From positions 1 through 29,423 of the IMG/VR virus record IMGVR_UViG_3300025154_000323: DNA of 29,423 bases; one strand, written 5' to 3'. The translations under genes and the position numbers were made by a program. The number at the start of each line of letters is the position of its first letter. Position 1 is the stretch's first letter. Positions 2,985-21,779 of this stretch are shown piece by piece. The notes beneath the pieces are model-generated. The model did not search any database. It was not told where the DNA came from and saw only the letters and a program-made list of their open reading frames with translations. This stretch comes from a virus.

Positions 2985-3365
2985 GTGGCTATAGCCATTC
3001 TCGACCACTCCGGGCGAATTAAAAGCATAACCTATGATCGATTGATGGCCCTCAATCCGTCGCGCCTAAAAACCATACGCGGGCGGCCATTCCACAGACT
3101 GCCGTGGTACGAAGAAAAGGACTCCAAAAAGATAGCCGGAGCGATACGAATGGCGGCGGCGGGAGAGGCGGTAACGATAGAGTTTCGGGCGATAGATATC
3201 AATAATGGAGAGGCCCACCATAGGCGGGCCATATTCGTCCCTCGCGGTGCATTTGTGGCGGTCAAAATTTTTGGGGAGTCAAACCATGGCGCGAATGCTT
3301 TTAGTGGTTCTGGTGCTCGTCGGGTGCGCGGGGTCTCCGATGGCTGTATCCATGATGAGCATTGA
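2985..3365 (+). CDS. Stand-alone PAS-like protein
   Basis: The GTG start at 2985 is preceded by CTGGAGAG. Residues 1 to about 95 read as a compact PAS fold: AIAILDHSGRIKSIT at the start, a PFHRLPWYEEKDSKKIAGAI helix region, then a GEAVTIEFRAID strand and a final VAVKIF strand. No output domain is attached. The last 27 residues overlap the lipoprotein gene by 80 bases and look like out-of-frame extension rather than folded protein. Its place directly after the repressor suggests that it tunes repressor activity in response to a ligand or redox signal; this is inference. The family assignment rests on pattern, without a search. Confidence 0.55.
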   Translation: MAIAILDHSGRIKSITYDRLMALNPSRLKTIRGRPFHRLPWYEEKDSKKIAGAIRMAAAGEAVTIEFRAIDINNGEAHHRRAIFVPRGAFVAVKIFGESNHGANAFSGSGARRVRGVSDGCIHDEH

Positions 3366-3684
3366 CGAACTCGCTCGGCAAGACACCAATTCGATCTGCG
3401 CGGCCTACCATGTCAGCCCATCGGCAAAGATAGAAAGTGAAATCAGGCTGCGCCGGGTCGTGACCGAAGCCGAATGGAAGGAGATCGAGACGCGCAGCAT
3501 CGTGATCGGCATGGGCGAGTGCGCCCTGCTCTGCTCGTGGGGAACTCCTGGGCCGTGGGGCCGCATTCACGATTATGTGCAGGCCGGCGCCAGTATTCGG
3601 CAATACGTTTATAGACCATGCACATCCTGCAGGACCAAATTCGTTTACGTCGAGCGCGGTCGCGTCACGGCGTGGAGCAATTAA
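3286..3684 (+). CDS. Small lipoprotein, BamE/SmpA-like pattern
   Basis: I chose ATG at 3286 because GGGGAG lies 7 bases upstream and it gives a clean lipoprotein signal: MARMLLVVLVLVGCAG, with lipobox LVGC and predicted acylated Cys14. The 132-residue product has a C-terminal part with an IGMGECALLCSWGTPG turn and a final KFVYVERGRVTAW strand. That pattern is typical of small exported proteins resembling BamE/SmpA. It carries a CTSC pair. It lies between the PAS-like gene and the integrase in the repressor operon, so it should be made in the lysogen. Surface lipoproteins in this position of other phages block superinfection; that role is an inference here. Confidence 0.7.
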   Translation: MARMLLVVLVLVGCAGSPMAVSMMSIDELARQDTNSICAAYHVSPSAKIESEIRLRRVVTEAEWKEIETRSIVIGMGECALLCSWGTPGPWGRIHDYVQAGASIRQYVYRPCTSCRTKFVYVERGRVTAWSN

Positions 3685-6848: not shown

Positions 6849-7005
6849 GGCGGTCCTCCTGCCTGAATGCGAGTTCAAACCGATCTTTCAGGTGAATACA
6901 ATCACCGCACCGATACAGGTAGTTTTCCGGCTTGTGGTGCCGGCCGGTGCAGTCGCGGCACTTGCCCTTCTCTCCGGATTCGTCTTTTTGGTAGTTGTCT
7001 TTCAC
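6823..7005 (-). CDS. Small Cys/His-rich protein, 60 aa
   Basis: A GTG start at 7005 lies 1 base after the stop of the previous gene, with GAGGCGATGAA upstream. The product is highly charged and carries KCRDC and RCGDC pairs around a GRHHKPENYLY segment, a likely zinc-binding knuckle. Its 3' end overlaps the next gene by 26 bases. The charged composition and spacing support a real gene. No known family. Confidence 0.55.
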   Translation of the reverse strand: MKDNYQKDESGEKGKCRDCTGRHHKPENYLYRCGDCIHLKDRFELAFRQEDRHALDKTHL

Positions 7006-7006
7006 T

Positions 7007-7231
7007 TCATCGCCTCACAATCTGCGCATACCAATTTCGCATTTCCTCCGCATCCTCCTCCAGTTCCGGGTAGATCACAGGGGCCTGGGAGGTCTGCGGC
7101 GAGGTAACAGCATACGGGCATCGCTCGCTTTTTTTGTCCGGGTGGTGGCACGTCCAGGGGCGCCCGGTCGGATCGAACGTCCACCCGTAATATTGGCAGT
7201 CTGGTTTTTCGCATCCGTTGCCCTGTGCCAT
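7007..7231 (-). CDS. Small Cys-rich phage protein, 74 aa
   Basis: ATG at 7231 follows the stop of the preceding gene directly (TGAATG). A competing frame at 7002-7235 covers almost the same bases but gives an unlikely Pro/Gly/Arg-rich product. This frame reads CEKPDCQYYGW, then WTCHHPDKKSERC, a CCHC-like metal site, followed by an acidic helix (PELEEDAEEMRNWYAQIVRR). It is the first of three small cysteine-rich genes in tandem. No function known. Confidence 0.6.
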   Translation of the reverse strand: MAQGNGCEKPDCQYYGWTFDPTGRPWTCHHPDKKSERCPYAVTSPQTSQAPVIYPELEEDAEEMRNWYAQIVRR

Positions 7232-7558
7232 TCACGGTCCACTCGGAAGCCTGATAGCCTCCACGATTTTAACAATGCCCATCTTTCCGATGTAGATTAT
7301 GCCGCCCATAACCGACACAACCAGAAATGTTACGATGGCAAGGCCCAGCTTTTCCCCGCGCTTTTTATATCTGGAAATGAACCGATTATTCTCACGCAAG
7401 ATCTCGATGCCGGCAGAATAACCAAGGTTGCCGCCCACGTCCTTGACCATGCCCATCAAGTGACCAAGCTCTTCCTGCGCCTCATGGGGAAGGTTGCAAT
7501 GGCATTGGCCTTTTACTGCTGCCGCGATTCGTTCGATGTCCTGTTCTGTGAGCGCCAT
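7232..7558 (-). CDS. Single-pass membrane protein, 108 aa
   Basis: ATG at 7558 has AAGGGAT upstream. Residues 1 to 70 are polar and helical with a CHCNLPHE cluster near 19-25. Residues 71 to 91 (LGLAIVTFLVVSVMGGIIYIG) form one transmembrane helix, and a short tail follows. It starts the block of small genes after the secreted proteins. Position and topology would allow a lysis accessory role (antiholin or spanin-like), but no motif proves it. Confidence 0.6.
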   Translation of the reverse strand: MALTEQDIERIAAAVKGQCHCNLPHEAQEELGHLMGMVKDVGGNLGYSAGIEILRENNRFISRYKKRGEKLGLAIVTFLVVSVMGGIIYIGKMGIVKIVEAIRLPSGP

Positions 7559-7572
7559 GAATTATCCCTTTG

Positions 7573-8472
7573 CTATTCAAAAATCCATCGGAATCCATTC
7601 GCCATGAATCCCTCACCGATTTTAAACTTTGCCCCCGATGGTGTCGGGGTAGGGGTTGGGGTTGGCGTCGGTGTCGGCGTTGGCGTGGGAGTCGGTGTCG
7701 GTTCACCGTCAACCGCTTCAAGAAGGAAATTATCGGTATATGATACGGCCAATGGAGACGGATCTCCGATGTTACTAGGGATGTAGAACAAATTATAAGC
7801 CGATCCCACCGAACAGCGCATGACGAGGTTATCCCGCGTCAACACCCTGGTACCGTCCATGTCGATGTGGAGATAACCGTTTGCCGAACCTATGTCGTTC
7901 AGCTTGTACGTGATGACGATCAGAACCCAATTGCCCCTATTGAACGTCTGCGCGGAACCGTATGAACCAGATGATGTCAGGGTGCAGCTGCCGTCCAAAT
8001 CTGAATTATGGTAAACCACTCCGCGCACGGTGAGCGGTTCGCTGTTGACGCAAGCCAATCCTGAATCCCAAAAAGCCTCGATCTGTATGGCTTGGTCGGC
8101 CTGTCTGAGCCGAGCGAACTTGACTCCAGCTTCATAACACGATGACCCGCCATCCTGAGGCCACGTGGAGGCGATCTTAAAGCGATAGGATAGCCGGATG
8201 GGAACATTATTTTCAGCGGTCGCATACCCCTGCATGGTCGCCAGAGTGATGGCCTTATAAAGTACCACCGTACCCGAGTGCGTGCATTTAACGGCCCCGG
8301 CACTTCCGTCATAAGTGTCTTCAGAGCTGGCCACGCAGTTACCAACTGTCCAATCGGAGATGTCCAGGTCGTCAAAATTATCCGATGATATGGTTGTATC
8401 GGCGCTGGCCGCGCCAAACAGAGCGAAGCTAATCGCTATTGCTGCCAGTAGATTTCGCATGTGGGCCATCAT
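7573..8472 (-). CDS. Secreted LamG/ConA-like protein with Pro-Thr linker
   Basis: The ATG at 8472 has AAGGGTG 8 bases upstream. A Sec signal peptide spans residues 1 to 25 (MRNLLAAIAISFALFGAASA, cleavage after ASA). The mature part to about residue 260 is a beta-rich jelly-roll of concanavalin/LamG type (DNFDDLDISDW, then IRLSYRFKIAS and YLHIDMDGTRV), with six scattered cysteines. A 21-residue Pro-Thr tract and a 21-residue C-terminal tail (KFKIGEGFMANGFRWIF) follow. It is the last of eight exported proteins downstream of the tail-tip gene. A carbohydrate-binding adhesin is the likely class. Whether it sits on virions or on cells is not clear. Confidence 0.75.
   Translation of the reverse strand: MMAHMRNLLAAIAISFALFGAASADTTISSDNFDDLDISDWTVGNCVASSEDTYDGSAGAVKCTHSGTVVLYKAITLATMQGYATAENNVPIRLSYRFKIASTWPQDGGSSCYEAGVKFARLRQADQAIQIEAFWDSGLACVNSEPLTVRGVVYHNSDLDGSCTLTSSGSYGSAQTFNRGNWVLIVITYKLNDIGSANGYLHIDMDGTRVLTRDNLVMRCSVGSAYNLFYIPSNIGDPSPLAVSYTDNFLLEAVDGEPTPTPTPTPTPTPTPTPTPTPSGAKFKIGEGFMANGFRWIFE
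7639..7701 (-). repeat. Pro-Thr codon repeat (21 codons)
   Basis: Sixty-three bases of alternating Pro and Thr codons (CCN ACN) form an imperfect hexamer repeat inside the 7573-8472 gene. The third codon positions vary, so the amino-acid pattern is conserved more strictly than the DNA. It encodes an extended spacer between the lectin-like domain and the C-terminal tail. Confidence 0.9.
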
Positions 8473-8474
8473 TA

Positions 8475-9044
8475 TCAGCACCCTTCGCTTGATATAAATA
8501 CTCCGAGCTCGCGCGCAGTCGTCGAGGCGCCGTTGAACGGGTCCGACAATGTCGGATATGTGTCGCTGCAACTCCAGCGGGTATTCGTTCCGGCAGTATA
8601 GCCGTACCCGATGGAGGTTCCGCTATCGGCCAGCCAGCCAATGAAGTATGGAGTTCCGGAAACGATGCTCAACGATGCTGTCAGAGCGAGGCAGTTCCAG
8701 GCGTTCGCAACCGTGGTGCCCGTGGATGTCACCGCGAGACGCGCCCCTGGTTCCCCGGCATCATCGGCATAAACCCCGCCGATCCACGACCGGCTGCTGG
8801 CGGTAAAGTACGCCGAAAGCGACACAGCAGAAAAATTCGCCCCGGCCACAAAACGGGCGAACGATCCGACCGCTGTTCCGGTTGAGCCGGGCGTTGTTCC
8901 CGGGTCGTGCCCAAGGGTGCTGACCGCCGAGCCGCCAGAACCGCGCACGAAATCAGCGATGGCCCGTGGAGATAACCCGAAGCCGGCCAGAGCCGCGATA
9001 CCACCAGCCGCGAAGGCCCGCCTTAAAAAGTCGCGCCGGTTCAT
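8475..9044 (-). CDS. Tat-exported adhesin-like protein
   Basis: A 189-residue protein beginning MNRRDFLRRAFAAGGIAALAG. This is a textbook twin-arginine signal (NRRDFLRR, then a mildly hydrophobic Ala/Gly helix and a PRAIA cleavage region near residue 30). The mature part is beta-rich with a YADDAGEPGARLA segment and a TPYFIGWLA strand, resembling small phage or bacterial carbohydrate-binding modules. It has three cysteines (TASLS region 1, C-terminal half 2). ATG overlaps the stop of the upstream fibre-like gene (ATGA) and its own stop lies 2 bases before the next start. A Tat signal implies folding before export, which is exceptional for a protein in a phage tail cluster. Confidence 0.8.
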   Translation of the reverse strand: MNRRDFLRRAFAAGGIAALAGFGLSPRAIADFVRGSGGSAVSTLGHDPGTTPGSTGTAVGSFARFVAGANFSAVSLSAYFTASSRSWIGGVYADDAGEPGARLAVTSTGTTVANAWNCLALTASLSIVSGTPYFIGWLADSGTSIGYGYTAGTNTRWSCSDTYPTLSDPFNGASTTARELGVFISSEGC

Positions 9045-10402
9045 CGCGTGCCCTCCACCTGGACAGTGACCGCCGTAACCGTGCCGCTGGGAGCGCCCAG
9101 GAGGATGCGCAGGGTGCCGTTGGCGGCGATGGCTGTATCAGATACCGTCCCGGCGTCCCAACCTCCATTGCAGGTTATGGCGCCGCTCAAAATGGTTGCG
9201 CAGTTGGCGCCGGCGCTGTCGCACTCCTGTAGGTCGGCCGTGATCGATGGCGTTGATCCTTCTGCGAAGCATTTAACCGCGGAGACCGTGATCGCTTCCG
9301 GGGCCTGGAACCAGTTGTAATCGTCGGCATCTGCCGGGTCGCTGATCGTGCGCGATTGCAGAACTGGGTAGGCCACGGACGGGGTAGGGTTGCCCGCCAC
9401 TCCATCGCCGTTTGTAAAAGTGATGCCGTCGCCGTTGGCGATGGATCTGGCCAGGGGGGAGCCGGAATTGTTTACCACGATACCGCTTGATGACAGCGTT
9501 TGGTAGGCGTCGGGGATATTCAGGGCATACCATTGATCGGTGCCATAAACGAAGTCCAGCACTGTGCCCACAACGCAGGTATAATCCGTGCTCCGATTGG
9601 CCGCCGTGATTTCGGACGAGGTAAGGTCAAATACTGTCGCATAATCGCATCGCACCCGCAGGCGTCGTCCCGCGGTGATCGCACTGCCACCGTGGTCAAA
9701 TCCGGTGATTGTGGTCGTGTCGGCAGTGGAATAATGTTCTGCCGCCGATACATCCGGGGTCGCGTCAGCGGCTCCGAAGGCCGTCCATGCCTGATATAAA
9801 AACGGAACGTCTCCCGAGTCGTCATCCAATATCCCCGTTATGTCGCCTGTCCCGCCGGTTGAATTGCATACGATGCCGACTCCAGCGGTATATGTGCAAT
9901 AAAGGCCGTCCGTCATGGTGCCAGCGTTGAGCGCCGACAGGCTCCCGATAGAATAGGCCGCCTTAAACTCTGCGCCGGTCAGGGTCAAAAACGTGTTGCT
10001 GTCATAGGCCACCATGATCTCATCGGCGTTGATCGTCCCCGTAAGCCGCGCCACTGTCGCCGGAAGCATTTGAATAGGAAGTCCCACGAGTCGCCATACT
10101 CCGGCAGTGGCGAAGTCGTCCGGCCTGATAACCGTGAAATAAGTGGCATCCTCTGCCGTGGTGCCGTCGGCGTCGAAAACGTAGTCATAGCGCGTTCCGG
10201 TCGTTCCGCTCAAAACCGCAACCTGGGCCGTGTCTCCGTCCGCGAGGTTGCTCGGATTGGGATCGCTCGCCCCGGTGATGTCGAGGGCGTCCAGATCGGT
10301 CCCGGATATGCCGCCCAGGTGCGACGTGCATCCGTAGTGTCTGGCGTAAGCCGGGGATGCGATGAGGATTAAAAGGACTGCCGCCGATAAAATTCTTCTC
10401 AT
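9041..10402 (-). CDS. Exported fibre-like protein, 453 aa
   Basis: The Sec signal peptide is residues 1 to 20 (MRRILSAAVLLILIASPAYA). The mature protein has phage-fibre features: a YFTVIRPDDFATAGVWRLVG stretch near 90-110, a DGITFTNGDGVAGNPTPSV segment and low-complexity Thr/Ser/Gly/Asp content. A C-terminal beta domain from about residue 350 (ISDPADADDYNWF onward) has four closely spaced cysteines. The centre also carries cysteine pairs (YCTYTAGVGIVC; VRC/YTC). The gene overlaps both neighbours by ATGA, so it is translationally coupled. It is probably a fibre or receptor-binding protein that passes through the inner membrane; known phage fibres usually assemble in the cytoplasm. Confidence 0.75.
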   Translation of the reverse strand: MRRILSAAVLLILIASPAYARHYGCTSHLGGISGTDLDALDITGASDPNPSNLADGDTAQVAVLSGTTGTRYDYVFDADGTTAEDATYFTVIRPDDFATAGVWRLVGLPIQMLPATVARLTGTINADEIMVAYDSNTFLTLTGAEFKAAYSIGSLSALNAGTMTDGLYCTYTAGVGIVCNSTGGTGDITGILDDDSGDVPFLYQAWTAFGAADATPDVSAAEHYSTADTTTITGFDHGGSAITAGRRLRVRCDYATVFDLTSSEITAANRSTDYTCVVGTVLDFVYGTDQWYALNIPDAYQTLSSSGIVVNNSGSPLARSIANGDGITFTNGDGVAGNPTPSVAYPVLQSRTISDPADADDYNWFQAPEAITVSAVKCFAEGSTPSITADLQECDSAGANCATILSGAITCNGGWDAGTVSDTAIAANGTLRILLGAPSGTVTAVTVQVEGTR

Positions 10403-11052
10403 GGTTTACACACTCCACATGGTTTGTATCCCTGGGCCACAGCCTCTTCAGGTGTGGCAAATCGAGCGGTACAGGAAAGGCAATCGTGATAACGGCAACC
10501 TTCTCGGTGGAATGTCTTCGTGATGATGTTGCCGGAATAGGGCGCCTGGGATTCATCGGGCTGGACGGTCACTATCCACAGTTTGCCCATGTCGTAGACG
10601 AAATATTCCCCGGGGGCCATCTCGTATATCGGGACATCGTTTTTGAGCAGTACGAAGCCCTTTGGCGGCGCTGGCGTGGCCGTGGGTGTTGGCGTAGGCT
10701 CAACGGTCGGCGCTGGGGTAGGCGTTGGGGTCGGGGTCGGCGTTGCGCTCACGAAAAGAACCTCATTGCTGTTGCCGCTCTCCTGGGTCCCGACGTAGGC
10801 CCGGGCTACGAAATAGTACTCCGTGTTGTCGGCCAGATCGTAGATCGTGGCCGTGGTCCTCGTTCCGGTCCAGGACGGCGCGGAATAGTTGTAATTCCCG
10901 CCATGCTCCCGTTGGTAGAGCCGATAGCCGTCAGGCGTGGGGTTGTTCGCGTCCCATTGCAGTGTGACCTGGGCGGCATAAGATAGACCCACCAACCCGA
11001 ACAGCGCCAGGGCTGCGAGGATGCTCCATAGGATCAAGGGCCATTTTTTCAC
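10399..11052 (-). CDS. Secreted FN3 protein with Pro-Thr linker and Ada-like Cys domain
   Basis: The GTG start at 11052 lies behind AGGAGGAAAC. The 217-residue product has a Sec signal (residues 1-27, ending SYAA) and a fibronectin type III domain (about 28-103: TLQWDANNPTPDGYRLYQ, then ATIYDLADNTEYYFVARAY). A Pro-Thr-Ala linker (103-130) and a C-terminal domain ending FHREGC...HDCLSC...GYKPCGVCKP follow. The five cysteines (186, 191, 194, 212, 215) and the PCGVC ending resemble the Ada-type metal-binding fold, usually cytoplasmic in DNA repair but also seen at the C-terminus of some exported proteins. The stop overlaps the next gene. Its role is unknown; a cell-surface or virion-surface adhesin is likely. 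Confidence 0.78.
   Translation of the reverse strand: MKKWPLILWSILAALALFGLVGLSYAAQVTLQWDANNPTPDGYRLYQREHGGNYNYSAPSWTGTRTTATIYDLADNTEYYFVARAYVGTQESGNSNEVLFVSATPTPTPTPTPAPTVEPTPTPTATPAPPKGFVLLKNDVPIYEMAPGEYFVYDMGKLWIVTVQPDESQAPYSGNIITKTFHREGCRYHDCLSCTARFATPEEAVAQGYKPCGVCKP
10663..10746 (-). repeat. Pro-Thr/Ala-rich codon tract (28 codons)
   Basis: A second alternating Pro-Thr tract, interrupted by Ala, Val and Glu, links the FN3 and Ada-like domains. It is less regular than the tract at 7639-7701 but has the same hexamer base pattern, so the two may have a common origin or be prone to recombine with each other. Confidence 0.8.
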
Positions 11053-11060
11053 GTTTCCTC

Positions 11061-12836
11061 CTACTGTAGCGTAAACCCCGGCCCGGTGCCTATCGTTGCG
11101 GATGGGCCGGTGCCGACTGATCTGGCTGGACGTACGTCCTGCCACTCTGCCGCGATAGCGGTCTTATCAAATCCTGCCCGGATATAGTTAATCGCGGCGT
11201 AAGCCGTTAGATCTGTGTCCCAATTATACCGTGCCTGCCCAAGCGCACTGGTCATAAATGCGGCTGTTGTGGCAGTTCCCCCCAGGGATTGGTTGTAGGT
11301 TTTTAGCGTGCGGGTTGCGTCGGTGTATGTGACCTGTGTATTTGATGCCCCAGTCTCTCCGCTGGCTGATACCCACCCGGAAAGGTCACCCCCTGGAGCA
11401 AACCAAGTGCTTTCGGTTTCCGAGCTATAATATCTGTTGTTTGAATAGGTGATTCCAGCAGTTATACTCCCAGATGCGTGCCGGATAATATAATCCGACC
11501 CGTTTACCATCTGAATATCGTTGCCCGAAAAAACACACCCGGACGTGTCCGTTAAATCACTTTCCCAACGAATTGCTTGACTTGCCCCGGCAGCAGTCGA
11601 GCGGCCATACACAATGTTATTTTGAACGGTCAGATTTTTCCCAACGTGGACGGTATCCCCACCGCTGATATAAATTGCAAAACCACCGCCAGCGTCCATG
11701 CCTGTTGGATCGGTCCAGATATTATCACTGATTAAAGAGCCGTCGTTGTTTTTCAACCACAGCCCCCATTCACCATCGCCATCGGTGTTTCCAGCGATTT
11801 CTACGGACTCTAAAAACACATTATCCCTGATTATGCCACTAATGATGCCACCCTCAAGGGTGCTACCGTGCTGTCCGACAAGCACCAGATCATTTTGCAC
11901 GATCAGATTTTTTTCAATCGATCCCCCGGCACGCGCTGAAATGCCCGAACGTTGCGACACATACATGATATTGCCGCGTATGAGCGTGTTGGGGGTTGCG
12001 TTGTTCAGGCCGTTATCAAGATAAAGGTGCCGGTTTCCCTCAACTGGTTTGTAGAAAAGATTCTCTTCGATAAGTAGACCATCGACTCCATATCCTCCAA
12101 GGGTGAATGCTGTCAGTTCGCCACTTTTACCTTCGATGAACTGGCATCTCCTAAAAGCTATGTTCGTGTGCCGACTGCCTTCTGGATACCCTTGAACCAA
12201 GTTCGTGTTGCGGTTAAACACGCAATCTTCAAACAATATTTCTTCTGACGTGCCTAATAGGTTGACACACCGACCCTCAGTGGAAGATTCCCATAGATGG
12301 GCGTAAAATTGGATGCCGGATATAATTACGTTGTTTGCATCCGGCGTGCCTTCCGTCTGCCACCCGCTATATATTCCTATGTTTAAGAGGGGTCTGTCGC
12401 CTGACGAACCGTAAGATGCCAAGATCTGACGGACTGTTGACGATGGGCCTGAGTTATTCCACCGGCCTATACTTCCAGTTGCGAATGCTTCTGTCCAAGT
12501 ATCTCCACGTTTTAGCAATAAAATATCCGGGTATCCATCGCGGACCTGGGCATAGGCGGCAGTGATCGTAAGATATGGGGCAACTCCAACGGGCGCTTGG
12601 AAAATTCCATTTGAGTCGAATGTCACATCTCCGATTCCGTAGATCTGCGCGGTGCCATCATTACCATCGTCGGCAACGAAGATTACTCGCGCCGTCGAGT
12701 AGCCGGTATCTGTCAGGGTGTCGAAATCCGTCCAGCCATCCGACGTTATAGGAAGTCCGGTAAAGTAGTGATTCGCCGCATATGTATCTGGATTAAATAA
12801 AAGAAGTAGTAATATGCAGCACGCGATTTTACGCAT
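11061..12836 (-). CDS. Exported right-handed beta-helix protein
   Basis: A 591-residue protein. I prefer ATG at 12836, with AGGTG 6 bases upstream; in-frame starts at 12842 and 12845 add two or three residues. A Sec signal covers residues 1 to 21 (KIACCILLLLLFNPDTYAA). Residues about 140-450 show the rungs of a parallel beta-helix, with repeats of the form N-x-x-x-x-N-x-I/V (LIEENLFYK, LIRGNIMYV, IIRDNVFLE, TVQNNIVYG). The fold is shared by pectate lyases and phage depolymerase tailspikes. A C-terminal segment follows (TAYAAINYIRAGFDKTAI). The catalytic residues cannot be assigned. It overlaps the upstream gene's end. A polysaccharide-binding or polysaccharide-degrading enzyme is likely. Confidence 0.78.
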   Translation of the reverse strand: MRKIACCILLLLLFNPDTYAANHYFTGLPITSDGWTDFDTLTDTGYSTARVIFVADDGNDGTAQIYGIGDVTFDSNGIFQAPVGVAPYLTITAAYAQVRDGYPDILLLKRGDTWTEAFATGSIGRWNNSGPSSTVRQILASYGSSGDRPLLNIGIYSGWQTEGTPDANNVIISGIQFYAHLWESSTEGRCVNLLGTSEEILFEDCVFNRNTNLVQGYPEGSRHTNIAFRRCQFIEGKSGELTAFTLGGYGVDGLLIEENLFYKPVEGNRHLYLDNGLNNATPNTLIRGNIMYVSQRSGISARAGGSIEKNLIVQNDLVLVGQHGSTLEGGIISGIIRDNVFLESVEIAGNTDGDGEWGLWLKNNDGSLISDNIWTDPTGMDAGGGFAIYISGGDTVHVGKNLTVQNNIVYGRSTAAGASQAIRWESDLTDTSGCVFSGNDIQMVNGSDYIIRHASGSITAGITYSNNRYYSSETESTWFAPGGDLSGWVSASGETGASNTQVTYTDATRTLKTYNQSLGGTATTAAFMTSALGQARYNWDTDLTAYAAINYIRAGFDKTAIAAEWQDVRPARSVGTGPSATIGTGPGFTLQ

Positions 12837-13527
12837 CGACATCACCTATTGTCGCGTCATCCACTATAATTTGGTCGAATATAAAGTTGTGAGCCTCGCC
12901 ATTGTCTTTTAGCAACTTGATGTTGTCAGGATCGCCGGAGGTAGTGCCTGTCGTGACCGATATGGATGGGCTTGCGGGTTTTGTATTATCTGTATCAATA
13001 TACACATCCAGCGTCCCATCTGCCCCTGATCCCGAAGCATACTCAGCCCAAATATAGTATGTGGTGTCAACACTGATTGCGGAGCTTGCCCCGTACGCCG
13101 TGCCATGATAGCCGCGAATTACCCCGGTTCCGGCTATTAATCGAAGATAGCATAACACCGTTGAGCCATCTCTAATTTGCAGAAATGTTGCTGACGAAGA
13201 CGCAGGTATGCTGTCTGTTCGGAAGCGGATAAAAGCGTTTACGTTAGCAGTTGCCGAAAAAGTGGGAGAGGTTGTGGTCCCATAGTTTTCTGTAATAGAT
13301 AACGATTGTGAACCCCTCAAAGCAGTAGTCGTATAATCCCAATCATGAGTTCCTGTATCGGCCCACCCTGATGGGGTCCCAGTGCCTTCTGCATTTTCTT
13401 CCACAAGGTAGGATGTAGCGGGGGCAGCCACCACCACCGGACCCTCAACAATCTGATAGCCGAAATTGGCCCAGGCGAGAGAAGCGAAGCAGAGAAGTGC
13501 GGCCAGGAGTAAAAGCTGTTTTTTCAT
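12829..13527 (-). CDS. Exported LamG-like protein, 232 aa
   Basis: ATG at 13527 follows AAAGGAGGCTTT. The Sec signal is residues 1 to 20 (MKKQLLLLAALLCFASLAWA). The mature part is a single jelly-roll: EENAEGTGTPSGWADTGTHD, then ALRGSQSLSI, NAFIRFRTDS, YYIWAEYASGS and a closing FIFDQIIVDD strand, the order found in LamG/concanavalin-like domains. No enzyme motif is visible. The gene overlaps the following beta-helix gene by 8 bases. A glycan-binding role is the best guess. It resembles the 7573-8472 protein in fold but not in detail. Confidence 0.75.
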   Translation of the reverse strand: MKKQLLLLAALLCFASLAWANFGYQIVEGPVVVAAPATSYLVEENAEGTGTPSGWADTGTHDWDYTTTALRGSQSLSITENYGTTTSPTFSATANVNAFIRFRTDSIPASSSATFLQIRDGSTVLCYLRLIAGTGVIRGYHGTAYGASSAISVDTTYYIWAEYASGSGADGTLDVYIDTDNTKPASPSISVTTGTTSGDPDNIKLLKDNGEAHNFIFDQIIVDDATIGDVDA

Positions 13528-13537: not shown

Positions 13538-15739
13538 TTACTGCGTGAAGCCGTAACGGATGGTCAGAGGGCCAGAATAAGAATCCACCGTCGAAGCATC
13601 ATCGGTGCCGTCGTCGCCGTCCCTGGTGATTCTAATGATCCACTTGGACCCAGGAGTAAGAGCTGCCGCCCAGCCAGTCAGAGTGTTACCGCCAGCTGTT
13701 TCAACATCTCCGGAAGCGCCACTGCCGTCAGCGGTATAGGCCAGATTCACGGCATCAGCGGCAGCAGTCGCGTTGTCTGCTGAGTCCGCGATGTCGATCA
13801 TAGTGATTACATAATCGTGGTCTGCCGTGTCAGCGCCACCAAGCGTGAACTTGAAGTAAGCCAGAAGATCAACGGACGTATCCAGATCGCGGGGAACTTC
13901 AAGGATGTACTCCACATAGTTATTGGCCTCAACGTCATCAGCAAAGAGCGCTTGGCCGTAGACTCTCGATGTTGCCGTGGTCTGCTGCGTTACGGCAGAA
14001 CCGAAAACCATTGGGGCAGCCAGCGTAATATAGCCGTAGCCCTTGAGCACGTTGCCTGTGCCGTTGGCATCCAAGGTCTTATTAGTCAAAGTCCGTGTCG
14101 CCGCTGGCTCTGCTTCGAATTGATCGCGCACGGCGTTCTTGGTCGGAACGCGGGTGTCTGCGTTCCATGTGCTTTCATTGTATGCGGTATCGTCACCGAG
14201 GGGATGGCCGGAAGCATCTACGTCGGTTGCGAGGACCAACTGGCTGTTGTAATCCCCGGTGTCAAGGGTGCGCGTAGTTCCGGTCGTGATGTTGTCCAGA
14301 ACAATCTGGAGTAATTTGGTCGCGTCGGTGTTGTCGTTGAACTGAGCCGCTGAATCATCGCTTCTGAAGTTGGTATAGAACCCAAGCGTACCAGCACCGT
14401 TCACGCCAAGAACTGAATTATTGGCGCCCTTGGCCAGCCGCGTTGGCGTTCCAGAAGCACCACCATAGATGATGTCTCCGGCTGTGGTCATGGGGTTGGT
14501 CATGCCTTCCCCGGCTGCCATAGACACCCAAACGGCTGCGCCGTCAGTTCCGTCAACAAGCTGGAAGCGGTCATTATCAGTAGTGTTCTGCCAAATGGTG
14601 CCTTCCCGGAAGTTGGTCACATCGTCGTTGACCGTGGGGTCATCTGCGGATTGGTAGAATGGAGTCATCAGCCGCCAGATGGGGGCACCAGCGGTTCCAT
14701 TGCTCTCGATGGAAGTTCCGATTGAGCCGATGGCAAAGTCCTTGACTCCGGCACCACTCCCAGTGCCGCCATCGTTGTAGAACATGCGCCAGGTGCCATG
14801 AGTTCCAAGGCCTTGAAGTCCGCCCGCAGTCTCTTGAATCATCCAAAAACTGGCGGCTCCAGCAGTCCCTAGCAGCGGTTGGCGCTCGCTGTTGACCTCC
14901 TCGATAGCGGCTTGAACGTTCGTGGCCTCGATATTACTGGCAGGAGTAAACACAACCTGGCTACCGTTTGGCGCGGTCCTGCTGATCTCTACCCATCGGT
15001 CTGTGCGGTACTGAACAATAATGCCCTGGTACTGTCCGAGCGAGGCGGCTGCGCCCAACTCCTGAACTCCTGCTGAATCAGCAAAAGTGCAAGCGTTGGC
15101 AGAGACGTTGAGGATGCTCAGTGTCTGGCCGTCCACGATGTTGGTTTCCCCCAGCGTCATCGCGCAGCCTTCCGCGTCCGAGCATGTCAGGGAGAGATGG
15201 GCCAGCATAATCCCGGGTGTCGGAGTAATGGTGCCGGATGCCGGGCCGACCCCGCCGGAATCATCCACGGTCTGAGTCTGCGCGACGGAGGGCGAAACCA
15301 GCTCACCATCGAGTTTATCGTTGTCGGTATCGTCGCCGGGCATACCGTCAAGATCGGTAAATGGTATAAGCTCTACCGTGTCGCCGTCCCAATAGTAGAG
15401 ATCGCCGTTGTCGGTATCGATGCAAAAGCCGTTTGTGATCGTGGCGCAGTTGGCCTGATAGACGATCTCGTCGGTGCCGCCGGCGCTCAGATTTTCTACG
15501 CTATCGCCGTCCCATCGATATACTTGATGGTCGTCGGAATCGATGCACATGCCGCTGGTGATCGTGGAGCAATCGGCTTGCCCGACGATAGGCCCTGAAA
15601 TGCCGATACCTACGGCCCTATCGGTCGTGGTCGTTTCCCCATCATCCACCCATCCGCCGGTCCCGTCCGGAGGCAGCGCGAAGGCGTTGCCGAAGCAAAG
15701 CGCCAGAATCAGCAGAACAAAGAGAAGTATTCTTTTCAT
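13538..15739 (-). CDS. Exported phage tail-fibre protein, 733 aa
   Basis: ATG at 15739 follows AGAGGTGACC. A Sec signal occupies residues 1 to 22 (MKRILLFVLLILALCFGNAF). The mature protein starts with two copies of a 45-residue unit (CSTITSGMCID...YRWDGDSVE and CATITNGFCID...YYWDGDTVE). The rest is typical of phage fibres: NIEATNVQAAIEEVN, the TLTNKTLDANGTGN motif, DTRVPTKNAVRDQFEAE and a C-terminal beta domain ending in an YGFTQ strand. The TLTNKT motif marks tail fibres of many phages. An export signal on a protein of this class is unexpected. The gene lies 9 bases after the next exported gene and 10 bases before the LamG-like one. Confidence 0.82.
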   Translation of the reverse strand: MKRILLFVLLILALCFGNAFALPPDGTGGWVDDGETTTTDRAVGIGISGPIVGQADCSTITSGMCIDSDDHQVYRWDGDSVENLSAGGTDEIVYQANCATITNGFCIDTDNGDLYYWDGDTVELIPFTDLDGMPGDDTDNDKLDGELVSPSVAQTQTVDDSGGVGPASGTITPTPGIMLAHLSLTCSDAEGCAMTLGETNIVDGQTLSILNVSANACTFADSAGVQELGAAASLGQYQGIIVQYRTDRWVEISRTAPNGSQVVFTPASNIEATNVQAAIEEVNSERQPLLGTAGAASFWMIQETAGGLQGLGTHGTWRMFYNDGGTGSGAGVKDFAIGSIGTSIESNGTAGAPIWRLMTPFYQSADDPTVNDDVTNFREGTIWQNTTDNDRFQLVDGTDGAAVWVSMAAGEGMTNPMTTAGDIIYGGASGTPTRLAKGANNSVLGVNGAGTLGFYTNFRSDDSAAQFNDNTDATKLLQIVLDNITTGTTRTLDTGDYNSQLVLATDVDASGHPLGDDTAYNESTWNADTRVPTKNAVRDQFEAEPAATRTLTNKTLDANGTGNVLKGYGYITLAAPMVFGSAVTQQTTATSRVYGQALFADDVEANNYVEYILEVPRDLDTSVDLLAYFKFTLGGADTADHDYVITMIDIADSADNATAAADAVNLAYTADGSGASGDVETAGGNTLTGWAAALTPGSKWIIRITRDGDDGTDDASTVDSYSGPLTIRYGFTQ

Positions 15740-15748
15740 GGTCACCTC

Positions 15749-16216
15749 TTACCGGCCCAATTTAATGTAAATGTCATAGGTCGCGCTGACAGTGGCTTGA
15801 TTCGTCACGGTCAGGGTCAGCACCGAATTAACAGGCTCGGCCTTCGGCACCGTTCCCTTGGCCGTGCCACTTATAGGGATGATGCCCACCTGGGAGTAAA
15901 GCGAAACGCCAAGCGCATCTGTGATGGCGATGTCTGCGACATCCGGCGCGGTCGTGCCCACCACGACATAGACGCCGATCAAATAAAAGCCCATGGCCTG
16001 GTACTCTTTAGGTAGGCCGGCGCTGATCGCCGCCGTGTTGATTGTGGTCGCCGGCACCGAACCATCGTTCGCGTCTCCGACACAGGCCAGCTTGATAACG
16101 AGCTGGTTTTTATCAGCAGATAGCTGATATTGCGTGACCGTTACGGTTCCGGCCGCGAGAGCCGCCGGCACGATAGCCAGGAGCATGATAATCGTGAGAA
16201 GAAATAGCTTTTTCAT
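15749..16216 (-). CDS. Exported small beta protein, 155 aa
   Basis: I chose ATG at 16216 for its GGTGAA/AAGGGATTGG upstream context and because it begins the signal peptide MKKLFLLTIIMLLAIVPAAL, with cleavage after ALAA near residue 22. The mature part is Val/Thr/Ala-rich and beta-stranded (TVTVTQYQLSADKNQLVI; SVLTLTVTNQATVSATYDIYI), like a single immunoglobulin-like or capping domain. It is the first of eight exported proteins after the cytoplasmic-type fibre. It might cap or dock the larger fibre that follows it. No family recognised. Confidence 0.7.
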   Translation of the reverse strand: MKKLFLLTIIMLLAIVPAALAAGTVTVTQYQLSADKNQLVIKLACVGDANDGSVPATTINTAAISAGLPKEYQAMGFYLIGVYVVVGTTAPDVADIAITDALGVSLYSQVGIIPISGTAKGTVPKAEPVNSVLTLTVTNQATVSATYDIYIKLGR

Positions 16217-16230
16217 TTCACCAATCCCTT

Positions 16231-17154
16231 CTATTGTTTTCGCAAAAATACCGCATGGATACCACATGAACCAACTCCCGCGGTTGAATTGCTTCCATCG
16301 CTAACTGAATATAGATTAAGACCGAAAGAGCCGTTACCGGTTATCACGAATATTCCGGTTACGTTTTTATACCAAAACTCTCCTATTGGTATGCTTCCGT
16401 CGCTGCCTATAAATCCCTCTGTTGCCCCCATGTCATAAGTCGCCGTTCCTGTTCCGTAGAGATTTGCACTTACAGCGCCAGCGGTTGCTCCTTTTTCGGC
16501 GGTTATGTTTCCTACTGCTAAAACTATGTCGCCAACCACAAGATTCCCAACAACAAGGCTAACAACGGCTACTCCAGTATTTGGGATTGTAACGCTTCCA
16601 GAATTGGTCGAAGACAGCGCCGCATTCGTCGGCATATTCGCATCGATCTGCGCGGCGCTCTTGGTGATCGCATGCAGCTTTGCAAAGTCAGCGGCCAGCG
16701 CGCCCTGGTTGTGCAATTGAGATACTTCGGCGGCCGTGGCCGTGGCGTCGTCGCAAAGCCGATCGATCTCTGTGGACGTCGATCCTAAAGCCACATCCTC
16801 ATTGAGCCGTGGCCCCGTAAACCGCTTATTGGTTGCAGTCTGCGAGCTGTTGTTGTCGAGGATGTCTCCAGCCGATGTTCCGCCAATGGTGCGGCCACCA
16901 AACGAAAGAACGGCGCCGGTCGTGTCGTTGTACGTGGCGAGCGTCACCCATCCGTAGGTGGCAGAATAAATCCTGATCGATATGACCGGGCTTGCCGAGG
17001 TATCGTTCCAGCACATGCCGGCGAAAGGATTCGATGGCGCGCTGGTTCCGCGGTTCAGGCTGGCGACCGCCGCGAAGTCGTCTTCGAGCGTTTCGGCGAG
17101 GGTCGCCATGTCGAGCGGAGACCCTGGGATTTCAAAGTTAGTTACCTGGCTCAT
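16231..17154 (-). CDS. Tail fibre protein without signal peptide
   Basis: A 307-residue protein whose ATG overlaps the stop of the tip gene (ATGA). It begins polar (MSQVTNFEIPGSPLDMATLA) with no export signal, in contrast to the eight genes that follow. The middle shows the helical linker common in fibres (VALGSTSTEIDRLCDDATAT, EVSQLHNQGALAADFAKLHA). The C-terminal third is a beta-rich tip with many Gly, Ser and Asn residues. Its direct coupling to the tip gene makes it the fibre most likely attached to the tail in the usual way. Confidence 0.78.
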   Translation of the reverse strand: MSQVTNFEIPGSPLDMATLAETLEDDFAAVASLNRGTSAPSNPFAGMCWNDTSASPVISIRIYSATYGWVTLATYNDTTGAVLSFGGRTIGGTSAGDILDNNSSQTATNKRFTGPRLNEDVALGSTSTEIDRLCDDATATAAEVSQLHNQGALAADFAKLHAITKSAAQIDANMPTNAALSSTNSGSVTIPNTGVAVVSLVVGNLVVGDIVLAVGNITAEKGATAGAVSANLYGTGTATYDMGATEGFIGSDGSIPIGEFWYKNVTGIFVITGNGSFGLNLYSVSDGSNSTAGVGSCGIHAVFLRKQ

Positions 17155-20100
17155 GTTTCGAGTACTCCGTATCCTTTGGCGACGCCAGAAATGGTCCGCG
17201 CCACTCCCGCCCCGCCGTTTGTGAAAGCAATATCAAACCCGGTTTCGTCCAGGTTGGTGATGGTGTAGTAATCCGCTTCCTCTCCGTTAAAGACCGATAT
17301 GCCGATCTCTGGTACCGCGAAGAAAGCCGGCGAGAAGGCCACCCTGGAGCCAGCAGACAGCACGTCCGCGCTGAACGGCACCACCCTATCGGGCATGTCG
17401 ATTGTCACGGTCACGGCCTCAAGAATGGGCGTGATGCTCGGGGCCGTACCCGAAAGGCGCGCCATGAACTTGTAGGCCCTGGCAGTATAATCTCCGACCA
17501 AGAACGGCTTCCATGCGCTCCATGTCGGTGTCCCAGCCGGATCGTCTTCGGTCGTTGCCACATAAAGCTCAACGTTGTATTGGCTCTCTTGGGCACCATA
17601 AAGGTTTTCGGCCTCGTAAAGGTCCGTCAGGTCGTAAAGATCGGAGGCGGTGTCTTGTCCGCTGATCGAAAGTGATGCCGTAAGGCGCGAAGTAAAAACG
17701 GCCTCAAGGTCAACGTAGCCGGTAAATTCAAATGTGCCTGTCTCGGTTTCCGGATCGGTGAGCACGAGCCCTCCCATGGCCACCGACGCGGAAACATTTG
17801 TTCCGGTACCACTCCACGATGGGTCGATCTGCGAAAACTCCTCGACAAAATTTAACCCGGCAATACCAGCAATATTGGTGCTGGCGGTCGATGCTGTTGC
17901 GCTCTCGCGGCCCGAGCGGTCAACCGCTTTGATCATGTAGGTGCCCACCATGGCAGCCACGGCAATGCTGGTTGTGGGTCCGGCATTGGCCACCACGTCA
18001 ACCGAATTCGCCCAGGTCGCGCCGACCGTGAGCGGGCTCCATCGGATGCGGTAATGAGATAAATCAAGATCGGTATTTGCCGTCCAGGTCAGCCGCGCTT
18101 CGCTTCCGACGATGTTGCAACCGAAGTCTTCCACATCCGCCGGGTCCTCGCTCTGGCCCTCTACGGCATCAAAGACAGATGAGGACCAGTCCGAAGCCAC
18201 CCCGTAGACACTCACCACCTGGGCGGCAATCTCGTAGGATTCACCCTCTATCACGCCATTGATGATGCCGGTCACACCGACATCTGCCGGCCATTCGACC
18301 TGGCTCCATCTCGTCGTTCCTGTGGCCCGGTAGCGCAGGCGATATTTTCCGATGCGGATTGTGCTGCTGGTGGCCGGGGCTACGGTCGCCAGAATCCGGG
18401 CTCGGATGAGTGCCCCGGTCACCTCAAGTGCCCTGGTCCCGCTCTCCACATTGCTGATCGATGGTGCTGGCGGCGCAAGGCGTGTGATGTCTACCGGGCC
18501 AGTGATTCGCGTGTTGAATGCCGGGATTGATTCCGTGTCGGCGTTGTAAATCGATGGCGCAAGATCCACACAGGTCAAAAGAGCGCAAAAGTCTTTCGTG
18601 CGGGTTATGCTTTTAACCAGCAGCCGGGCGGTCATCAATGTGGCCTCGCCGAACATGGCGAGATCGCCCACCGCCGGGCCGTAGGACGCCGGAACCGATC
18701 CATCAACGTAGAATGTCGATGTCACAGTGTCTTCGGTGACCGACGTGGCCGAAAGAACGACGCTGTCACCGTTTGCCTTGCGGAACCGGCAGGCGTAAGA
18801 GGTGCCGGCCAGCATGGCGAACTCTTCGTCGAGCGTGACACTGATTATGGTCCCGCCAACGGTGCCGCCATCGAATTCAACGCCGCCGGAGTCGTCGAAG
18901 GCCACGCCGCCGGAGTCGTCGAAAAACCCGTCCTCTGTCGTTTCTTCTGTTACCGAAATAGATTTGACGCGGCCCCAGGCCGTACCCCATTTAGGAACGT
19001 CGTGGCCGCAATGGATCATGGACCCGCGCCGACAGGCAAGGTGCTCGAAGTCGCAATAAAAGGAGTACGTCTCGGGCCGGAGGATCATCTGCGCCAGATG
19101 GTAGCGCGCAAATCGATAGATCAAATCCGGGTCCGTCACCCCTGGGAATTCGATGCTCTCGAAAAGCGTTGCATTCGCCTCGGTGTAGCCATCAGAATAA
19201 ACTATGCGCTCGTCCCATTCGTAATCGGCGTCCGCGTTCACAAATTTTACCCGCAGGGCGTGCGGCATATCAAAAAGCATTTTCTCGGAAGAAAAGCCCC
19301 AGGAGTTGCGCGGGGTGAAATGCTGCGAAATGGGCCGGCCATCATAATCATTGATCACCATCCACAGGCCGTCGATGATCGATGGCGCGGCCCTGCCGGC
19401 AACGGCCACGTCCATCAGGGTGTCCCAAATCGATGCGCGGAAATCACGGTACATATTGAAGCTGTACCCGCGATCTTCGCACTCATCGAACCAGTCGGCC
19501 AACTGATCGTCATTTATCTGTGACGCCGTGCGCTTCAAGGCGTTGGCGTTGCCGGTCAAAACGTGGCGGAAAAGAGCTGCCGGATTACTACTATAACCCC
19601 ACGTGCTCCAGGTCGATCCGTCCCAAACCGGAACGAATGAATCACAAACCGCGTTGACGTTGTCGATCACATTGGAAAGTTGTTCGGTGGCCTTGATTCG
19701 AAAAGCCGTTACCGTCAAGTGCTTTTCGAAGTTGATGGGGTTATCGTTGAGCGTGCCGCGCAAGTACTGCCAAGTCATTTCGTCAAAAATCATATCATCG
19801 ACGGAATCTTCGGTCACGCGGCTGATGGCCACCTCATAGGCCTTCGTCCGGTCCACCTTCCAGCGTTGAGAGAATCGTTGCACTTCCGGGCTTTTTGCTG
19901 TCCATGCCGATTCTTCAATCGTTATGGTTCCAGCCGTGATATTGACCTGATCGCCGACCAGCGAGCACACCAGGCCCGTTCGATCTGTGTCGATGATATT
20001 GGTCACAGTATCATACCCCATCACTGGCCAAGCGATGTCGGTGCTGGTATCAACATAAAGCGTCCTGGTCGTGTATTCTCCAATTCGCACAGACAATGGG

Positions 20101-21224
20101 CGCTCTGTTCTGCCTCCGTATGCCCTGATAACCCCATCGTGGCAGGCGTAGATTGAAAATGTTTCCCCTGGCACGAGGTATCCTAATTCATCGTAATAAC
20201 TTCCAGGGACCATGGGGCCGAGCGCATAGGTCGCTGATGATTGCTCGGCGAACGCCACCGTACCGTCTGTGTAGGTCCAGGCCGATGTGCCCACTTCACG
20301 ATAGCGAATCTGCGCGGTCACGGTAGTTTCTGCCCGAAACGCTCCGCTCCGGCTGCTGTTACCGATTCTGACCAGGCCTCGGTTGAAATAAATGTCAACT
20401 GACAACTCATCTACGTTTTCCGGCGCCGTCCTGGTTATCCATCCAGAAGAGTACTCCACGAGTGCTCCGACCGGCGTTTGTTCTACCTGTGATGGAAAAA
20501 GGTCTATCGTGTCTTCGCCGTCATATCCCAGGTAGGTGCGAACCTCGACACCCTCGAAAGACGAAAGTGGGGTATCTCCGATCTTGATCGTTCCGACCCT
20601 TATGGGCGAATATCCCCAAACCAGCAGCAGGCGAAGATATTCGTCGCCGCCCTCTATTTCTGTGAATGTCTTTGCCCCCAGGCGCGGGTAAACCTTATGC
20701 CGTCCAAGAAGTTGAGGGATCGGCCCCCAGGGGTCGGCCACGTTGCGAGCACCGCTTATCGAATAGGTCGGGCTGTCGCTGTACGAAGTATTCCGAGCAT
20801 CGGCCGGCCTCACAGGCGCTATGGCGTTGACCAAGAACATTCCGGCCGTGGATACAGCCGCCGCCGCGAAAGCCCCGGCCATTGGGCCATAGGCAGTTGC
20901 TGCGAGTCCTCCGGTATATGCTGCTGCCGCGATAACAACGATGGTCATAAGCACGTGCAGCGGGTTTTTCCCCTCGCCGCCGTGCAGCTTGGTATAAATC
21001 AGCAGATGATCGTCGGCCTTTGGCGCCACCAGCGCCCAAGACGAGGCCGGAACCGGGTATCCGTTCAGGTCCACGCAAACCGCATCGCTCACGCGCCCAC
21101 GCATGGCCTCAGAGACAATGGCCGCTATGTCTCTGCCGGCCTGGATCTGACGGACGATGGGCGCCGATATTGCGAGCGGCCTCGTCGTTAGCGTGAGGCT
21201 ATTTTGCGTAGCGGTAGATGCCAT
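17151..21224 (-). CDS. J: Tail tip protein, I-J type (TipJ-like), 1357 aa
   Basis: The central host-recognition protein of the tail tip. I chose ATG at 21224, which overlaps the NlpC/P60 gene by 26 bases; the longer frame reads through that gene. Residues 1-80 are a small alpha/beta domain and 89-136 a long Ala/Gly-rich hydrophobic segment, as in lambda gpI. From about 148 (SYSDSPTYSISGARNVADPW, then LGRHKVYPRLG) the J-type tip domains follow. Later parts include FN3-like domains (about 990-1150) and a DLYDLTDLYEAENLYG motif. It also has a duplicated DDSGGV unit. The protein forms the tip and binds the receptor; the fibre genes follow directly. Confidence 0.88.
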   Translation of the reverse strand: MASTATQNSLTLTTRPLAISAPIVRQIQAGRDIAAIVSEAMRGRVSDAVCVDLNGYPVPASSWALVAPKADDHLLIYTKLHGGEGKNPLHVLMTIVVIAAAAYTGGLAATAYGPMAGAFAAAAVSTAGMFLVNAIAPVRPADARNTSYSDSPTYSISGARNVADPWGPIPQLLGRHKVYPRLGAKTFTEIEGGDEYLRLLLVWGYSPIRVGTIKIGDTPLSSFEGVEVRTYLGYDGEDTIDLFPSQVEQTPVGALVEYSSGWITRTAPENVDELSVDIYFNRGLVRIGNSSRSGAFRAETTVTAQIRYREVGTSAWTYTDGTVAFAEQSSATYALGPMVPGSYYDELGYLVPGETFSIYACHDGVIRAYGGRTERPLSVRIGEYTTRTLYVDTSTDIAWPVMGYDTVTNIIDTDRTGLVCSLVGDQVNITAGTITIEESAWTAKSPEVQRFSQRWKVDRTKAYEVAISRVTEDSVDDMIFDEMTWQYLRGTLNDNPINFEKHLTVTAFRIKATEQLSNVIDNVNAVCDSFVPVWDGSTWSTWGYSSNPAALFRHVLTGNANALKRTASQINDDQLADWFDECEDRGYSFNMYRDFRASIWDTLMDVAVAGRAAPSIIDGLWMVINDYDGRPISQHFTPRNSWGFSSEKMLFDMPHALRVKFVNADADYEWDERIVYSDGYTEANATLFESIEFPGVTDPDLIYRFARYHLAQMILRPETYSFYCDFEHLACRRGSMIHCGHDVPKWGTAWGRVKSISVTEETTEDGFFDDSGGVAFDDSGGVEFDGGTVGGTIISVTLDEEFAMLAGTSYACRFRKANGDSVVLSATSVTEDTVTSTFYVDGSVPASYGPAVGDLAMFGEATLMTARLLVKSITRTKDFCALLTCVDLAPSIYNADTESIPAFNTRITGPVDITRLAPPAPSISNVESGTRALEVTGALIRARILATVAPATSSTIRIGKYRLRYRATGTTRWSQVEWPADVGVTGIINGVIEGESYEIAAQVVSVYGVASDWSSSVFDAVEGQSEDPADVEDFGCNIVGSEARLTWTANTDLDLSHYRIRWSPLTVGATWANSVDVVANAGPTTSIAVAAMVGTYMIKAVDRSGRESATASTASTNIAGIAGLNFVEEFSQIDPSWSGTGTNVSASVAMGGLVLTDPETETGTFEFTGYVDLEAVFTSRLTASLSISGQDTASDLYDLTDLYEAENLYGAQESQYNVELYVATTEDDPAGTPTWSAWKPFLVGDYTARAYKFMARLSGTAPSITPILEAVTVTIDMPDRVVPFSADVLSAGSRVAFSPAFFAVPEIGISVFNGEEADYYTITNLDETGFDIAFTNGGAGVARTISGVAKGYGVLET

Positions 21225-21600
21225 AGATCTTCGATTTCCAAACCGGTGCGTTGTAGGGCTCCACGGTGGAGTTGATGCCCTCCATGACGTGAAGCATTTG
21301 GCCGCGGCCACAAACGATTCCAACGTGCGTGTTTACCTGGCCGCGCCGAAAAATAACGATGTCAAAATCTTGTGGATCTCCTACGCGCTCCCAATCGTCC
21401 AGGCCGGCCTTGATCTCGCGTGATACGCGGGCCAGTGAGCCCAATGAGAGGTCCTTTAGGGCACCAGCTACCATGGGTAGTCCCCGACCTAAAACCTCTT
21501 CGTAAACGAGTCGGACAAGCCCCCAACAGTCGCAGCCGAAGCGGTCGCGGCCATCGAAGGCGAAGGGGATGCCGGCGTATAGGTCGGTCCAGTGTCTCAA
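21199..21600 (-). CDS. NlpC/P60 tail peptidase (lambda K-like)
   Basis: A 133-residue papain-like cell-wall peptidase. The catalytic triad is visible: Cys25 in FGCDCWGLVRL, His92 in NTHVGIV and a polar third residue, probably His104 in QMLHVME. Proteins of this type at this place in the tail cassette (before J) cut peptidoglycan during DNA entry or help tip assembly. The start is a TTG at 21600, with AGGATAGGTAG upstream, directly after the stop of a 55-residue gene. The length equals one catalytic domain without the JAB/MPN domain present in lambda K. Confidence 0.88.
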   Translation of the reverse strand: MRHWTDLYAGIPFAFDGRDRFGCDCWGLVRLVYEEVLGRGLPMVAGALKDLSLGSLARVSREIKAGLDDWERVGDPQDFDIVIFRRGQVNTHVGIVCGRGQMLHVMEGINSTVEPYNAPVWKSKIYGIYRYAK

Positions 21601-21768: not shown

Positions 21769-21779
21769 AAATCCTCCTC

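Follow-up and report, generated by a model that had tools for sequence, protein, structure and literature searches.

The window, a virus record of 29,423 bases from IMG/VR, encodes on its minus strand a protein of 591 amino acids with a predicted Sec-type signal peptide and a predicted right-handed parallel β-helix fold. Its gene is the fourth of eight in a run located after a homologue of the lambda central tail fibre gene J, and its seven neighbours in this run also bear predicted export signals, one of them of the Tat type. In double-stranded DNA phages, synthesis and assembly of the tail fibres are held to take place in the cytoplasm. Export signals on tail-region proteins are unexpected, since phages normally assemble their fibres within the cell. 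The β-helix protein may well bind or cleave carbohydrates as one component of a receptor-binding module in a siphophage, with the distal parts of that module exported. Its position, its mosaic make-up, the fibre-type proteins encoded around it and the homologues found in tail-type settings argue for a receptor-binding module, and the signal peptides for an exported one.

Gene order and export signals after J

The tail region reads, on the minus strand, from the tape measure gene (22648-24645) through minor tail genes, J and a gene for a 307-amino-acid protein to the eight genes of the run, which ends at position 7573 (Table 1). The run resembles a phage tail-fibre module: it lies after J, on the same strand as the tail genes with frames mostly overlapping or abutting, and contains a mosaic cassette. 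Relatives of the J protein at 47-52% were found in one Magnetococcales MAG and in virus contigs without host. An integrase gene at 3685-4779 (phrog_1, 6.5e-43) points to a temperate phage. Outside the run, a small protein encoded at 3205-3684 was flagged for a signal peptide (MARMLLVVLVLVGCA) and is lipoprotein-like by eye; the product of 840-1535 is called a transposase by PHROG (7.9e-10), yet contains a HEIYH motif, which we take to resemble metallopeptidases.

Table 1. Features of the tail-fibre region of the window (aa, amino acids).
Feature	Position	Strand	Evidence
Central tail fibre, J homologue, lambda-J-like	17151..21323	-	phrog_31, 7.9e-112
J-adjacent fibre-type protein, 307 aa, with anchor domain, without signal peptide	16231..17154	-	
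First gene of the eight-gene run, predicted signal peptide MKKLFLLTIIMLLAIVPAALA cleaved before A (start codon inside the ORF)	15749..16267	-	heuristic
Tail-fibre-like protein, 735 aa, predicted signal peptide	13538..15745	-	heuristic
Protein of 232 aa, predicted signal peptide	12829..13527	-	heuristic
Right-handed parallel β-helix protein, 591 aa, predicted Sec-type export	11061..12836	-	predicted fold and heuristic
Signal-peptide codons of the β-helix gene, 20 aa, predicted cleavage between TYA and AN	12777..12836	-	heuristic
Protein with predicted signal peptide, fn3-like region, Pro-Thr linker and C-terminal Cys motif	10399..11052	-	
Protein of 453 aa, predicted signal peptide	9041..10402	-	heuristic
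Protein of 189 aa, predicted Tat signal	8475..9044	-	TIGR01409, 16.9 bits (cut-off 16.7)
Protein with predicted signal peptide and Thr-Pro linker	7573..8472	-	heuristic
Swappable cassette, not matched at the DNA level in L002 and L005	10977..15689	-	blastn

Signal peptides were called with a home-made heuristic, not SignalP, that scores a positive n-region, a hydrophobic core and an AxA-type site (threshold 5.5) and also misses some signal peptides apparent by eye. All eight genes between 16267 and 7573 were flagged when GTG and TTG starts were allowed, and seven of eight with ATG only. For comparison, 146 loci were collected, of which 122 have a called J gene; the window was excluded from the tally. 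Upstream of J, 19 of 740 genes were flagged in these 122 loci; the difference from 8/8 gives a Fisher p of about 1e-12 with genes treated as independent. Downstream of J the count was 67 of 469, made up of 19/24 in the window's kin (L002, L003, L005 and L069) and 48/445 elsewhere. At least three flagged genes in a row after J occurred in 5 of the 104 loci having downstream genes (L002, L005, L069, L107 and L043); L107 and L043 were not counted as fibre runs since they include lysis-type proteins by eye. One flag, in L018, lies at an internal start and looks like a false positive. The exported proteins of the window are not raised in cysteine (36/2698 vs 48/4364, p 0.43), which counts against a simple oxidative-folding reading.

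Phage proteins that use host Sec before lysis are known from the exported endolysins, namely Lys44 of fOg44 and the SAR endolysins (described in an excerpt of PMC6116005). These are lysis enzymes and not receptor-binding proteins; predicted Sec use is what they share with the window. Phage tail fibres with signal peptides were not described in any of the excerpts retrieved from the PMC literature (PMC3426561, PMC8144416, PMC12923769, PMC12210884, PMC11101478, PMC4640515, PMC12309495, PMC6116005 and PMC10127595 among them); subscription journals and preprints lay outside this scope.

The β-helix protein and its relatives

The ORF at 11061-12845 (minus strand) encodes 594 amino acids from a GTG start, and the ATG at 12836 gives the 591-amino-acid protein starting with MRKIACC. 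Its predicted signal MRKIACCILLLLLFNPDTYA, followed by AN, consists of the n-region MRK, the h-region IACCILLLLLF and the cleavage site, and it scored 5.86 or 6.16 in two runs of the heuristic. By this home-made heuristic only, the protein falls into the class of Sec-exported proteins with a cleavable signal peptide, as originally predicted; its homologue in L172 has a signal peptide of its own.

Searches with the single sequence gave no match in Pfam (E ≤ 1), PHROG (E ≤ 0.1) or NCBIfam (E ≤ 1) and no significant match among PDB sequences; polysaccharide lyase families (PL6, pectate lyase) were not matched above cut-off in Pfam, NCBIfam or PDB. Relatives were found neither by tblastn in phages or plasmids nor when the single sequence was scanned against viral and genome contigs. 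Homologues in nine loci (L157, L168, L170, L172, L175, L180, L181, L182 and L183) came to light when viral contigs were scanned for the peptide LLKRGDTW and then searched with alignments. Alignment A5 has ten rows, the window and eight of these loci with L182 entered twice, and leaves out L172, a full-length homologue (residues 28-556 aligned, 28% identity, 2e-37). Its rows start with GWTxF...IYVS, continue with LLKRGDTW and rungs containing EEN, NxY and R-x-GG, and carry a C-terminal YxRxGF; E258, Y272 and R302 are among the invariant columns.

The original prediction had read a right-handed parallel β-helix from repeating Asn and Val/Ile positions. Structure prediction agrees with the fold, and the pattern by itself is a weak argument: [NDGKE]N[LIVF], a pattern chosen after inspection of the sequence, has 8 occurrences where shuffles have 2.7 (p 0.0035), and for plain N[LIVF] the numbers are 12 and 8.7 (p 0.14). 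AlphaFold2 reached a pLDDT of 35 with the single sequence, and with A5 it predicted a right-handed parallel β-helix with strands from residues 50 to 471 (pLDDT 67.6, pTM 0.77). PF13229 (Beta_helix) was matched by two of the ten alignment rows, at best with 2.8e-10. In VIA-align the best match was the lyase RbmB (Z 22.6, 2.8 Å over 308 residues), followed by PL6 (21.8), the epimerase AlgE4 (21.7), phi29 gp12 (21.4), the Dettilon tailspike (20.8), the adhesin PfbA (20.5), the Sf6 tailspike (20.4) and, both at 19.8, GH136 LnbX and CBA120 TSP3. Foldseek against PDB placed LnbX first (1.6e-6), Pel9A and PL6 within the first eight and also listed the HK620 tailspike; against BFVD it retrieved an uncultured Caudovirales protein (1.5e-9). 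The modelled fold is thus well supported, and by pTM and Z it belongs to the superfamily of right-handed parallel β-helices, that is, parallel β-solenoids. Since lyases, hydrolases, epimerase, tailspikes and adhesin all score between Z 19 and 23, within about 3 Z, no activity is claimed.

The tailspike depolymerases of Sf6, Dettilon, CBA120 (TSP3) and HK620 are like the window protein in fold, in their place in the tail module and in cassette variation; the window protein differs by its predicted signal peptide and the lack of a virion-binding head domain. RbmB, PL6, AlgE4 and LnbX have the same fold, but in the structural alignments the window protein is 14-16% identical to them, has no family match by sequence and is encoded in a phage tail region. 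Many β-helix polysaccharide lyases, epimerases and hydrolases are secreted.

Signal peptides are unevenly distributed in the family: four of ten members (window, L172, L180 and L183) pass the threshold, L157 lies just under it, and L168, L170, L175, L181 and L182 do not pass. The L175 protein, encoded near a portal gene, has no signal peptide by the heuristic, and none is present in the partial ORF of L170. In L182 (909-8621), a protein of 2570 amino acids without signal peptide opens with two tandem copies of the β-helix family, and its gene adjoins a tail tube gene (phrog_45). This protein begins with MSNAWTN, within about ten residues of the point at which the mature window protein starts in the alignment.

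The mature window protein starts near the family core and, as predicted, lacks an N-terminal virion-attachment domain. From this lack and the Sec signal a released, diffusible enzyme had been proposed, a step that does not follow, because the L182 protein likewise has no such domain and is encoded beside a tail tube gene without any signal peptide. A free depolymerase, released from the infected or lysogenic cell and stripping capsule or exopolysaccharide apart from the particle, is rather unlikely in our judgement. It would account for a signal peptide that is followed by no extra domain, and polysaccharide lyases and GH136 are among the best fold matches; furthermore, the product of 7573-8472 weakly resembles polysaccharide lyase 14 (Polysacc_lyase_14, 4.2e-5, 23.8 bits, below the cut-off of 27), and Pro-Thr linkers such as those in the run occur in extracellular enzymes. 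However, export signals are common to the fibre-type neighbours, the homologues without signal peptide sit in tail-type settings, tailspikes and the PfbA adhesin score nearly alike, and the candidate catalysis comes without an assigned catalytic residue.

A5 was also run against 398 genomes from the same phylum as the Magnetococcales locus and gave 8 places in 6 genomes at E ≤ 0.001, each matching part of the profile. None of the called ORFs at these eight loci contains RGDT[WF], and from their first residues they were judged by eye to be other β-helix or fibre proteins and rejected as family members. The β-helix family occurred in 0 of 7 genomes with J loci.

Cassette exchange with sister phages

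The 45.9-kb contig L002 shares 96.9% identity with window positions 15689-29422 and 95.9% with 6891-10977, and blastn found no match in L002 for the cassette between these segments. In its place L002 has, arranged in a similar order, genes for a fibre-like protein of 788 amino acids and for proteins of 202 and 440 amino acids. All three were flagged for a signal peptide, and all three are also present in L005. The three cassette proteins of the window had no blastp match in L002 at 1e-3, and the 440-amino-acid protein weakly matched PF13229 (9.7e-4, below cut-off).

The left junction of the cassette lies among the codons for the signal peptide of the fibre protein. At the right junction, which coincides with the predicted cleavage site of the fn3 gene product, the window has MKKWPLILWSILAALALFGLVGLSYA and L002 has MKKALLIALLITCAFCAVAQA, and the same AQVTLQWD follows both. 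The two phages thus have different sequences here, each still a predicted signal peptide, before a conserved mature part. Between the window and L002, the first gene of the run is 75% identical.

L069, with a J protein 49% identical to that of the window, carries the same kind of flagged run. DNA identity of 78% over 15603-16168 indicates that the run's first gene is present there too. The first 65 amino acids of its 706-amino-acid protein are 65% identical to the 735-amino-acid fibre of the window, and the remainder has no match; the window's 453-amino-acid protein has its post-signal domain in common with a 462-amino-acid protein of L069. Another L069 protein, of 588 amino acids, weakly matched PF13229 (6.7e-4, below cut-off).

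Some smaller features of the run were noted. The Tat-signal protein lies within the exported run, and its L002 copy is 100% identical. Family searches with the 232-amino-acid protein gave no match. The fn3 gene product ends in a Cys-rich motif, CRYHDCLSC...CGVC, for which Ada/sunset matches were weak and below cut-off. The products of window 7573-8472, L002 18559-19881 and L069 21557-22771 all end in a Pro-Thr linker and a short tail (FRWIFE, GLSIR and GGKALR, respectively), which is perhaps a C-terminal tag.

The J-adjacent anchor domain

A profile of the anchor domain was built from that of the 307-amino-acid protein, with six seeds bearing a signal peptide and two without; because of this seeding, the proportions below are no frequencies. 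Among 66 proteins matched in the collected loci, 8 have a predicted signal peptide directly before the domain and 58, including that of the window, do not. The eight come from five loci, namely Bradyrhizobium phage ppBdUSDA122-1, Bradyrhizobium YR681, a Bradyrhizobiaceae MAG, Nitrobacter and Devosia. With added loci, and identical domains counted once, there were 9 anchors with and 52 without signal peptide. Two cysteines are present in 6 of the 9 and in 0 of the 52 (Fisher p 1.5e-6, which overstates independence because the nine are relatives of one another and supplied most seeds of the profile); two of the remaining three have no cysteine and one has one. The pair could be what a protein folding in an oxidising compartment would gain.

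Within the bacterial family to which YR681 belongs, one and the same N-terminus reads MSQGSTVLPTTGVF without signal (L232, L233) and ...PQGRA followed, after the predicted cleavage, by AQSSLSLPTTGVF with signal (L226). Among the 14 loci taken into this check, 5 were flagged (only L236 being new), 4 were not, 4 have a start outside the locus and 1 has no suitable ORF. The L012 anchor was matched in 4 of the 297 genomes searched from the order and in 7 of the 296 searched from the family.

These data bear on two further explanations. That the hydrophobic N-termini are assembly or membrane-anchor helices of ordinary tail fibres, and not export signals, would fit the normal assembly of tail fibres in the cytoplasm. 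The nearest precedent is a putative tail fibre of cyanophage P-SSM2, for which an excerpt of PMC3426561 gives a predicted transmembrane stretch at residues 1-31. This reading is nevertheless very improbable: the signals are tripartite with AxA-type sites, one is a Tat signal, a signal sequence is replaced while the mature part is kept, and the same domain occurs without signal in 52 anchors and with paired cysteines in 6 of the 9 that have one.

Alternatively, the run could encode host-surface proteins acting in lysogenic conversion, superinfection exclusion or adhesion, like Lom of lambda, an exported protein whose gene lies between J and those for the fibres (according to an excerpt of PMC12309495). 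The temperate nature of the phage and the place after J would suit such proteins, as would the signal-peptide β-helix homologue of L172 (1350-3221), which adjoins an integrase gene in a cargo-like position. Lom is a single outer-membrane β-barrel, whereas the run comprises eight genes that are fibre- and adhesin-like, mostly overlap or abut and share the strand of the tail genes. Two run members have their post-signal domain in common with L069 fibre-region proteins, the J-adjacent anchor has a signal peptide in other phages, and untargeted family scans gave no β-barrel or surface-anchor match. Hence, we regard host-surface proteins as unlikely.

Proposed route to the virion

From the computed fold, signal peptides, position after J and cassette exchange we infer the following course for an exported receptor-binding module. 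The late tail operon would be translated, and Sec, or Tat for one member, would carry the fibres and adhesins into the periplasm, there to lose their signal peptides and fold. At lysis, the exported proteins would meet virions or the cell surface, and the β-helix would engage, and possibly cleave, a host surface polysaccharide. We think that the exported parts most likely end up joined to the tail tip and rank this before a free enzyme, because the signal-bearing anchors still look like anchors; the account as a whole we judge about as likely as not. It counts against the exported module that tail assembly in the cytoplasm could not reach an exported fibre, so that a later step would have to join the two.

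A broader generalization, which we consider doubtful, is that a class of phages exports fibres, spikes and adhesins through Sec or Tat, with periplasmic disulfides, virion attachment at or after lysis, and signal-peptide codons as the joints of cassette swaps. Signals on fibre domains, the cysteine pair and signals on both sides of the exchange would mean either that virions are finished outside the cytoplasm or that fibre-derived proteins are deployed on or around the host, and either outcome would change the annotation and expression of receptor-binding proteins.

The feature is present in a phage produced by a cultured strain and is hence testable. Bradyrhizobium diazoefficiens USDA 122 spontaneously releases a siphophage (stated in an excerpt of PMC10127595). 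The genome of ppBdUSDA122-1 (OP596612) has, like the window, a J homologue followed by fibre-type signal-peptide genes; it differs in having two such genes only, whose products are WAX24263.1 and WAX24264.1, and in that the anchor domain itself bears the signal peptide.

Flagged genes in further loci

Four loci reached through the β-helix motif, and therefore examples and not a survey, contain further flagged genes. L180 has seven in succession, the β-helix gene last, adjoining terminase and portal genes; one product carries Peptidase_S74 (43.3 bits, cut-off 22). In L178, which also encodes major head and head-tail adaptor proteins, five lie near a β-helix gene that itself is not flagged, and one product matches the pectate-lyase-like PF12708 (30.7 bits, cut-off 27). 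In L162, four flagged genes, two with PHROG tail matches, lie beside terminase genes, and the β-helix is just below the threshold. L158, with the same sample number as L069, has a flagged fibre-like protein of 334 amino acids and an open-ended β-helix ORF whose signal peptide was judged by eye.

As a control, S74 was searched in 398 Pseudomonadota genomes and matched in 53. Thirty loci were fetched, 24 of which were readable, and 3 ORFs were flagged; two more (L214 and L223) look like signal peptides by eye. Exported S74 proteins are therefore not special to these phages. Finally, the terminase large subunit of L180 (9584-12049) looks interrupted after GGRGGMK by a stretch ending in VTHN before T, which we presume to be intein-like from these motifs.
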